Origin: Candidatus Cloacimonadota bacterium
GTDB lineage: Bacteria; Cloacimonadota; Cloacimonadia; Cloacimonadales; JAIOQZ01
Length of the DNA: 64,000 nt
Assembly: GCA_021108395.1 (NCBI GenBank)
Contig: JAIOQZ010000014.1
Location: 1 to 64,000, forward strand
Direction of reading: 5' to 3'
Position 1 is the stretch's first letter. Every line of letters starts with the position of its first letter. Position numbers and translations under genes: made by a program. The notes beneath the pieces were generated by a model. The model was not told where the DNA came from. It ran no database searches and was given only the letters and a program-made list of their open reading frames with translations. This document shows positions 4,937 through 44,757 of the stretch, one piece after another.

Positions 4937-4954
4937 TAAGAAGGGGCTTTAAGA

Positions 4955-5176
4955 AGGGGCGCTGCCCCTATCCCCGCTCACTTTTTGCAAAAAGTGAGAT
5001 CAAAAATTCTTGCGGAAACTGCGTTTCCTATGCACAAAACATATAGTAAATAATTTCTTGCACATAGGATGCGTCAGCATCCGTTAGAAGTTTTTGATCC
5101 AAACTTTTTACAAAAAGTTTGGTGGGGTTAGTCGCGTAGCGAAGCGAAGTGAGCCTTCAAAGGGGGGCGCTGCCCC
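4955..5176. repeat. multi-hairpin interspersed repeat, copy 1
   Basis: This fills the 300-nt gap between alr and folP. The core (4977-5122) holds four perfect hairpins: 4977-4998 (CTCACTTTTT arm), 5014-5028 (GGAAAC arm), 5067-5082 (GGATGC arm) and 5099-5122 (CCAAACTTTTT arm). The outer hairpins are joined to the core by inverted GATCAAAAA/TTTTTGATC stretches. The same palindrome, GGGGCGCTGCCCC, flanks both sides (4956-4968 and 5164-5176). Copy 2 is at 16464-16602 with its core flipped. No gene was found in it; it may end alr transcription. Confidence 0.85.
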
Positions 5177-5179
5177 ATC

Positions 5180-7075
5180 TTAATATGTGAAGACGATGCC
5201 GCTGTTGGGCAGAACCCACTCATCGGGGTCTGTGCTTACGGTGTGGCAGCCGGGGGTTGACTTGATATGCGGAAAACGGGTGCGGCCGGCGAACACCGGC
5301 ACCACCTGGACCTGCGAAATGCTTTCCGGCGGACAGTGGAAGCTTACGTCCACGCCCTGGGTCGGCTCGGTGATGAACACGCTCAGTTGGTGCGAGCGCC
5401 GGGGATAGTATGTTCGCGTGTCGATGCGGAAGGAAACTTCCTCGCCCACCAGGCTTTCCATTGATGGATGGCTACAGCCTATCTCGATGCAGCCGTTCAC
5501 GAGCCGGCTCTCGATATCGAGTTCGAGGTCGTTCACCTGCACACCCGTCACCTCGAACCAGCGGCTGTCGAGGGTGAGCTTGTCGTCCAGCAGCCAGCGG
5601 TATTCGCAGTCGCGCCGAGTGAAGTAGCGCTCCAACATGGCCGGGTTTGTGGCGCAGGCGACGACAAAGCGCCCAGCCTGCAAGCGCTTGTGGAACTCCA
5701 GTTTGGTGCGGGTGAGCCAATGGTCGGGCTGGGAGGGGTCGTCGGAGAAGGTGAGCGTGTGGCGGAAGTCGCGGCGATAGTGGATGTCGCGGTCGTGGTC
5801 GGCAAAGAAATACTTGAGCAGCTTGTCGTACAACAGCGCGGCAATCTCCTTGCTTTGCAGCCGCTGGCTGATTGATGCCTCGATGACGCGGTCGAGGCCG
5901 TCGTCGCTGAAGTCGGGCGCGTGGAACTCGCGGCGAGCCAGTGGGGTCGAGGCCACCACGCGGCCATCCTGCCGGTAGTAGCGGCGCGCTCTTCTGCCAA
6001 GCTGGCACAACAGTTCATAGGGGTTGCCGCCGTAACGCGCTGCCAGTTTCTCGGCTCGCAATTCCTCGTGGCCGGCGCCCAACACTGTCGCTTCATCACC
6101 GGGCTTCACCGACATATCGTCGTCCAGCCCGATAGTGGTCATGTCCATGCTCACCTTGCCCAGCACGGGGCAGAGGCGGTCATGCAGCAACACCACACCC
6201 TTGCCGGAGAGCAGGAAGTCATAGCCGTCGGCGTAGCCAACAGGCAGAATAGCATATGAGTGGTCACGGGTGGCGGTGTAGGTGCGGTTATAGCCGATTG
6301 AAGCGCCCCTGCTCACGCGGCGCACCATGCTCACGGTTGTCTTGAAGGTCATCACGGGTCGCAGGTTGATGCGTTGTCGCAGGCTGTCATCGGGGTAGAT
6401 GCCATAGGAAAGCAGGCCCAGGCGCACCAGGTTGGTGAGGTGGTCTGGCTGGGTGACAGCCGCCGGGCTGTTTGCGATGTGAACCCAGCGTGGCCGCTGG
6501 GGCAAGCTGCGGACAAGGCGCTCGAACCTGGCCAACTGCTGCCGCGAGAAATCGTCGTCGCATTCGGAGGCGCTGTAGTGGCTGAACACGCCATCCACCA
6601 CCAGCCCCGGCAACTCGTGCAGTATGTTCAGGAAATCGTGGGCGTTTTCGGGCGCTACACCGCTGCGGCCCATGCCGGTGTCGAGATTGACGTGCGCCAC
6701 GCCGGGGTTGTCGCCGCAGGCGCTCGACCATGCTCTGGCGAAGTCGAGGTCGCTGAGTGTGGGCACGAGGTTGTAATCGCGCAGCAGGCCGATCTCATCG
6801 ATGAGTGAGGGCGACAGCACGAGAATGGGCAGTTCGATACCGCGATAGCGCAGAACGGCGCCTTCTTCGGCGTTGGCCACGCCAAGCCAGGCCACGCCTT
6901 CCTGCTCGGCCCGGCGGGAGATTTCCCAGGCGCCGTGGCCATAGGCGTCTGCCTTGACAATCTGCATCAGGGCCTGGTTGGAGTGGAGGAAAGCGCGCAG
7001 CTCGGACAGGTTGAGGGCGTAGGCGTCCAAATCGATCTCGGTCCAACTGCGGCTTGCCATAATGTTAGAGGACAT
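5180..7075 (-). CDS. alr: alanine racemase with a ~250-residue C-terminal extension
   Basis: PLP-dependent interconversion of L- and D-alanine for peptidoglycan. Residues 7-375 are a complete racemase: PLP lysine K41 in IVKADAYGHG, LDTGMGRSG, FSHYSASE, and catalytic Tyr262 in SIGYNRTY followed by LPVGYADGY; the domain closes with NPYELLCQLGRRARRYY. Normal racemases stop here at about 370-380 residues. This one runs on to 631 with a soluble extension (helical near LLYDKLLKYFFADHDRDI, then probably beta-rich, residues 465-631) that I do not recognise. The frame is continuous with no sign of a frameshift. It overlaps the upstream HD-GYP gene by 11 nt; an ATG at 7060 is an alternative start. Confidence 0.92.
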   Translation of the reverse strand: MSSNIMASRSWTEIDLDAYALNLSELRAFLHSNQALMQIVKADAYGHGAWEISRRAEQEGVAWLGVANAEEGAVLRYRGIELPILVLSPSLIDEIGLLRDYNLVPTLSDLDFARAWSSACGDNPGVAHVNLDTGMGRSGVAPENAHDFLNILHELPGLVVDGVFSHYSASECDDDFSRQQLARFERLVRSLPQRPRWVHIANSPAAVTQPDHLTNLVRLGLLSYGIYPDDSLRQRINLRPVMTFKTTVSMVRRVSRGASIGYNRTYTATRDHSYAILPVGYADGYDFLLSGKGVVLLHDRLCPVLGKVSMDMTTIGLDDDMSVKPGDEATVLGAGHEELRAEKLAARYGGNPYELLCQLGRRARRYYRQDGRVVASTPLARREFHAPDFSDDGLDRVIEASISQRLQSKEIAALLYDKLLKYFFADHDRDIHYRRDFRHTLTFSDDPSQPDHWLTRTKLEFHKRLQAGRFVVACATNPAMLERYFTRRDCEYRWLLDDKLTLDSRWFEVTGVQVNDLELDIESRLVNGCIEIGCSHPSMESLVGEEVSFRIDTRTYYPRRSHQLSVFITEPTQGVDVSFHCPPESISQVQVVPVFAGRTRFPHIKSTPGCHTVSTDPDEWVLPNSGIVFTY

Positions 7076-16393: not shown

Positions 16394-16416
16394 TGTCACG
16401 ACAGGAATAACATGAA

Positions 16417-16445
16417 GGGAGCGCCGTACGGCGCTCCCTTTTTTT
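16417..16445 (+). terminator. rho-independent terminator after the Omp28-like gene
   Basis: A perfect palindrome (GGGAGCGCC / GGCGCTCCC, loop GTAC) followed by seven T residues, 24 nt past the stop. Confidence 0.9.
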
Positions 16446-16463
16446 CGAGAGAAAGGGGACAAG

Positions 16464-16602
16464 CTCACTTTTTTGTAAAAAGTGAGATCAAAAACTTTTG
16501 GCGGATGCTAACGCATCCTTGTGTCATAAGAGTCTTCTTTGAGCGAAAGGAAACGAAGTTTCCGCAAAAGTTTTTGATCCAAACTTTTTACAAAAAGTTT
16601 GG
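16464..16602. repeat. multi-hairpin interspersed repeat, copy 2 (core inverted)
   Basis: Same outer hairpins as the copy at 4977-5122: CTCACTTTTT arm (16464-16486) and CCAAACTTTTT arm (16579-16602). The inner hairpins are swapped: GGATGC arm (16503-16518) comes first, GGAAAC arm (16549-16563) second. GATCAAAAACTTTTGGC on the left and GCAAAAGTTTTTGATC on the right form a near-perfect inverted repeat around the core. It lies between two convergent genes, 6 nt from the stop of the VWA gene. Confidence 0.85.
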
Positions 16603-16608
16603 TGGGCG

Positions 16609-44592: not shown

Positions 44593-44640
44593 ACACCCCA
44601 TCCCCGGCCCTTCCCCTGCGCAAGGGAAGGGAGTCCGACC
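44593..44640 (-). repeat. REP-like palindromic repeat, inverted copy
   Basis: Read on the minus strand: CCCTTCCC / GGGGAAGGG around TTGCGCA, then a tail ending GGGGTGTC. Tail-to-tail with the copy at 44661-44715. Confidence 0.7.
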
Positions 44641-44660
44641 GTGTGCCAGATTCGCAGCAT

Positions 44661-44715
44661 TTCTTACCCTCTCCAATGCAGGAGAGGGTCGGCGGTACTC
44701 CGACGGGGTGAGGTG
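44661..44715 (+). repeat. REP-like palindromic repeat
   Basis: CCCTCTCC / GGAGAGGG around AATGCA, then TCGG...CCGA and GGGGTGAGG. Same family as 41696-41748. With the copy at 44593 it forms an inverted pair. Confidence 0.75.
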
Positions 44716-44757
44716 TCTTCGGGCTGCCGCAGCTTGCTGACTTCGTCAATAATCTGA

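Follow-up and report, generated by a model that had tools for sequence, protein, structure and literature searches.

The genome of this Cloacimonadota bacterium contains a dispersed family of nested near-palindromic elements that occupy at least 113 intergenic sites, are built of modular halves with Watson-Crick DNA stems and unlike left and right sides, have TA at their ends, are often fused exactly to the stop codons of neighbouring genes, and carry a core that occurs in both orientations. We think it probable that this is a non-autonomous, MITE-like family that inserted at TA in the past by means of a transposase acting in trans, and whose halves reshuffle. Two copies lie in the window, the whole 64 kb stretch of DNA that was analysed. 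A mechanical search for a stem with hairpins on both flanks found exactly these two copies there and no hairpin-flanked stem once the sequence of the retrieved loci had been shuffled, and folding as single-stranded DNA gave z scores against shuffled sequence of -7.9 for copy 1 and -9.1 for copy 2. A preliminary description had reported both repeats, and their outer and inner hairpins were found at the positions that it gave: the outer arms carry CTCAC and then CCAAAC in both copies, the inner hairpins are swapped and reverse-complemented (GGAAAC then GGATGC in copy 1, the opposite in copy 2), and a gene 3' end adjoins each copy. The extent of 4977-5122 that had been assigned to copy 1 proved too short, as this copy runs from about 4952 to 5180, with a GGGGCGCTGCCCC hairpin at each end. 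The features of the two copies are as follows.

4952-5180: copy 1, complete element, 229 bp, termini AGAAGGGG..CCCCATCT, TA at 4950-4951 and 5181-5182
4956-4968: copy 1, outermost left hairpin GGGGCGCTGCCCC, exact match
4977-4998: copy 1, outer left hairpin CTCACTTTTTGCAAAAAGTGAG, type b (CTCAC)
4999-5006: copy 1, inner stem, left arm ATCAAAAA, pairs with 5091-5098
5014-5028: copy 1, inner left hairpin GGAAAC...GTTTCC
5029-5066: copy 1, variable tip, stem TATGCACA...TGCACATA
5067-5082: copy 1, inner right hairpin GGATGC...GCATCC
5091-5098: copy 1, inner stem, right arm TTTTTGAT
5099-5122: copy 1, outer right hairpin CCAAACTTTTTACAAAAAGTTTGG, type c (CCAAAC)
5131-5157, minus strand: copy 1, optional module GCTCACTTCGCTTCGCTACGCGAC, near many other copies too
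5164-5176: copy 1, outermost right hairpin GGGGCGCTGCCCC, exact match
16462-16606: copy 2, shorter, lacking the outermost G/C hairpins
16464-16486: copy 2, outer left hairpin, type b (CTCAC)
16487-16500: copy 2, inner stem, left arm ATCAAAAACTTTTG
16503-16518: copy 2, inner left hairpin GGATGC...GCATCC, core reversed relative to copy 1
16549-16563: copy 2, inner right hairpin GGAAAC...GTTTCC
16565-16578: copy 2, inner stem, right arm CAAAAGTTTTTGAT
16579-16602: copy 2, outer right hairpin, type c (CCAAAC)

Copy 1 lies between two codirectional minus-strand genes. It abuts one of them at the stop codon, its right end supplying TAA for the gene at 5180-7060 (minus strand); the other begins at a distance of about 70 bp, with copy 1 on its upstream side. 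Copy 2 lies between convergent genes. The genes beside the two copies are ordinary, encoding a pterin-binding enzyme, an alanine racemase and a secreted FlgD-tail protein; a further neighbouring protein gave weak matches to MG2/DUF4350 that fell below the cut-off. Elsewhere in the window, at 44640-44720, there is a hairpin repeat, ACCCTCTCCAATGCAGGAGAGGGTCGGCGGTACTCCGACGGGGTGAGGTGTCTTC, close likenesses of which adjoin elements at two other loci (L267 and L273), and which seems to be another dispersed family.

Searching the whole 2.89 Mb genome, as the preliminary description had proposed, revealed many copies: copy 1 as DNA query gave 74 matches and copy 2 gave 76. A covariance model built on one half-element, from outer hairpin through linker to inner hairpin, matched all 150 candidates that were scored, out of 1554 found at first look, so that the family has 150 or more half-copies, spread over no fewer than 113 sites, and 40 sites are clear plus/minus pairs. 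Forty-one full elements could be resolved into modules, and 25 copies are complete, at 189-340 bp. Read from the outside inwards, a half consists of TA, AAGA with a G/C hairpin (e.g. GACAGGGGCGCCGCCCCTG), ACCCC, the outer hairpin, AYCAAAAACTT, the inner hairpin and a variable tip, and the full element is a nested near-palindrome of half, tip and mirror-image half, bounded by terminal inverted repeats (AAGA..GGGG / CCCC..TCTT). The outer hairpin has the core CTTTTTNNAAAAAG and flanks of type CTCGC, CTCAC, CCAAAC, TCCAC or CTTACC, and the inner hairpin is of type GGAAAC, GGATAC or GGATGC. Solo or degenerate halves are common, optional modules are present in some copies, and in a few the outer hairpin bears two extra hairpins. 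There were no recent, near-identical copies among the members of the family. In two long related copies (L245 and L258) a strong G/C hairpin of the AACAGGGG..CCCCTGTT type stands in place of the tip, which gives the impression that the element has enclosed a terminator. Separate repeats also occur close to some copies, one of the form GAACGAAAGCTTTGCCGCGAAGCGG..GAAAGTGGAG at L184, L188, L215 and L268, and one of CCCCCCTGTCAAGGGGG followed by G/C hairpins at L201, L202, L209, L213, L226, L227 and L253. Five contigs (C6, C16, C29, C30 and C47) start or end about 50 bp or less from an element, which suggests that the palindromes break assembly.

The placement of the elements relative to genes, called here by a simple caller trained on the window, is far from random. 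None of the 113 sites falls inside a called gene, and convergent, tandem and divergent settings number 39, 52 and 12 for the elements as against 4, 43 and 3 for the window, an excess of convergent settings (Fisher p 9e-5). A gene 3' end is faced by 54 of 90 termini, and at half of these junctions (27/54) the gene meets the element in a single phase, such that TA and the element's first A together form a TAA stop. The stop codons at abutting ends are accordingly TAA in 27 cases, TGA in 5 and TAG in none, against a baseline of 98, 101 and 63 (p 5e-7). TA also directly precedes the element in 26 of the 58 termini that are not at a stop codon (p 9e-20), and several copies at gene 5' ends abut a Shine-Dalgarno sequence. 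Both sides carry TA in 9 of the 25 complete copies, among which we found no target duplication longer than TA; being self-complementary, TA fits either a target duplication or the element's own terminal bases. The inner A is kept in 91% and the T in 64%. Of 9 phased ends inspected by eye, only 6 would retain a stop codon if the flanks were joined, which is near chance.

The two sides of an element are almost never alike. Outer hairpins of the same family on left and right occur in none of 41 copies, where 11.3 would be expected, and inner hairpins of the same family in one of 41, where 14.9 would be expected. Core orientation, by contrast, is decoupled from the outer arms, with GGATGC on the CCAAAC/TCCAC side in 18 elements and on the CTCGC/CTCAC/CTTACC side in 13. 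Core inversion and the exchange of halves each account for both orientations. That recombination between the arms of the inner stem turns the core round with respect to the outer hairpins, either as an ongoing switch or as a recurrent event, would be consistent with the commonness of both arrangements, with the inverted repeat of 8-14 bp that the inner-stem arms form, and with one pair of cores (L191/L271) that are flipped yet 0.79 similar. Against this, the most similar cores share the arm-core arrangement in 8 cases and are flipped in 1 (p 0.026), the arrangement becoming random at lower similarity, which implies that it is inherited and slow to change and gives no support to an active inversion switch. 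The inner stem, of only about 11-14 bp, is also far too short a repeat for RecA-type recombination, random assortment of halves, constrained only so that the two sides are unlike, predicts this same mix of close to 50:50, and the orientations are equally frequent relative to genes and so have no apparent readout. We therefore regard an invertible element as improbable. Of the original proposal, the small, apparently non-autonomous element with a modular core, present in many copies with both orientations common, is borne out; the active inversion device is not, and the structured RNA that it also envisaged is disfavoured by the pairing data and by the lack of polarity relative to transcription.

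An alignment of 139 distinct halves comprises 2046 pair cells, of which 99.2% hold standard pairs, a percentage inflated by aligning the halves by their fit to the model, which nonetheless does not favour A-C over G-U; 346 cells show double changes, and only about 11 cells are G-U. An independent count on the same halves gave 8 G-T and 13 A-C. Under selection on an RNA, G-U pairs should far outnumber A-C. The tips are essentially unconserved, and in 22 codirectional settings the outer and the inner hairpins are oriented independently of gene direction (8:10 and 9:10). The near-absence of G-T steps together with the lack of polarity places the constraint most likely on DNA rather than RNA, through protein binding, through a cruciform or single-strand hairpin, or through template-switch correction of palindromes. 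A structured RNA, or a 3'-UTR terminator working in the transcript, might have been expected from deep hairpins that directly follow stop codons, and is very improbable given so many compensated cells with almost no G-U pairs and the lack of strand polarity; in addition, a covariance-model search of Rfam gave no match to the family, and canonical terminators are found external to the elements, one example being that at 16415-16440 just beside copy 2. By a relaxed scan, imperfect at element edges, such terminators are present inside only 3 of the 41 parsed copies. This scarcity also argues against sites of the REP/BIME kind maintained by the host, in which cruciform or protein-binding palindromes at gene ends would serve chromosome architecture, supercoiling or the limiting of read-through and mobility would lie only in the past. 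Such a role would fit hairpins that remain 98-99% Watson-Crick even where the tips are unrelated, the preference for gene 3' ends and convergent genes, and the absence of an orientation preference. The elements are, however, absent from the nearest sampled relatives, so that they form no essential ancestral system, many are solo or degenerate halves, and they have no identified binding protein; we consider host maintenance rather unlikely as the main explanation. That the hairpins are strongly conserved while the tips are not does suggest a function today; a purely parasitic element would require none, and this stands against the MITE-like interpretation that we prefer. So do the lack of an autonomous partner among the transposase families searched, the lack of near-identical copies, the fact that no empty site was seen, the better retention of the inner A than of the T at the ends, and the near-chance outcome of joining the flanks. 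A secondary role of the hairpins in the host is possible.

Under the MITE-like interpretation, copies would have spread by insertion at TA dinucleotides, with a transposase acting in trans that has perhaps since been lost. As the element starts with A, insertion in the TA of a stop codon would remake TAA, and such insertions would be harmless and survive. Over evolutionary time copies may have traded halves and modules with one another, or a core may now and then have been inverted, giving rise to both orientations. Bacteria tend to delete long perfect palindromes; copies with identical sides would be such palindromes and would have been lost, leaving survivors with unlike sides. Palindrome processing by SbcCD of E. 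coli is among the subjects of two published studies (PMC3315005, PMC4245961). With regard to the mobiliser, no Y1, DDE_3/IS630 or DDE_Tnp_1 (IS4-type) transposase was found in the genome. A RAYT/REPIN origin was rejected on the lack of a Y1 transposase, and IS630 and IS4-type partners on the lack of DDE_3 and DDE_Tnp_1 matches. Three rve hits are present, and the rve proteins were rejected as mobiliser as the element's ends are absent near all three loci.

Several bacterial MITEs have TA-type ends, as does the present family. MITEs are short and non-coding, with terminal inverted repeats, intergenic dispersal and the ability to fold (PMC3049150, PMC10969869), and bacterial examples such as RUP of pneumococcus, the Correia elements and ERIC resemble our family in all these respects and in their size of 100-350 bp. 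In contrast to these, no autonomous relative of the family was found among the Y1, DDE_3, DDE_Tnp_1 and rve families searched, its interior consists of nested different hairpins rather than one long stem, and its halves reassort. BOX elements of streptococci are likewise composite and vary in module number (PMC3049150), but it is the tandem copy number of the central boxB that varies, whereas the present family swaps module types in mirror-image halves. REP, BIME and REPIN sequences resemble the family in being extragenic palindromes that come as inverted pairs close to gene 3' ends; the units described here are much larger, lie in a genome that lacks a Y1/RAYT transposase and, by eye, show no GTAG/CGTC tag of the REP type.

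The family appears restricted in its distribution, as expected of a lineage-specific gain. The DNA query gave no matches in 58 relatives, the 20-mer AAACTTTTTNNAAAAAGTTT, which forms the CCAAAC hairpin as a palindrome, has 45 occurrences in this genome and none in 117 relatives, and the family architecture was absent from 515 kb sampled from relatives. The G+C content of the window is 60%, and that of the sampled relatives mostly 30-52%. Plasmid and phage records likewise gave no matches. In viral contigs a generic arm pattern matched only acetobacter-like prophage repeats of a different layout, and an inner-half pattern matched mostly chance sites and one other repeat, presumably an IS605-type end. 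The prophage repeat (L127-L133), in which AAAAGTTTTTGG surrounds two T5/A5 hairpins, resides in a host that we take from its sequence to be acetobacter-like. The only background seen with the architecture detector was 2 matches in one viral contig (2 in 480 kb).

Across 84,980 genomes the exact arm AGTTTTTGATCCAAACTTTTTNNAAAAAGTTTGG was found in 38 stretches from five genomes, all Oscillospiraceae or Clostridia by title. In Acutalibacter sp. 1XD8-33 and other Oscillospiraceae this identical 34-nt arm, comprising inner stem and CCAAAC hairpin, sits in other multi-hairpin repeats, and all seven nested structures detected there have unlike sides (7/7). These repeats differ from our family in belonging to another phylum and in that no inner GGAAAC/GGATGC hairpins were seen; none of the other modules tested was present in them. 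The shared arm may reflect transfer of a module or convergence within a wider class. On the strength of the identical arm and the common layout in which left differs from right, we tentatively raise the idea, speculative as it is, that the family belongs to a larger class of palindromes with mirror-image halves and unlike hairpins that has moved between phyla, whose interchangeable halves recombine and for which the stop codon is a built-in landing site.

The family is a DNA-level counter-example to the assumption that covarying hairpins denote RNA. Its fusion to stop codons suggests that an inserted sequence whose first base rebuilds the stop codon can harmlessly fill a tightly packed genome, and repeats with mirror-image halves seem to survive only as long as the two sides are unlike. 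The arm shared with Oscillospiraceae raises the possibility that such repeat modules are exchanged across phyla.
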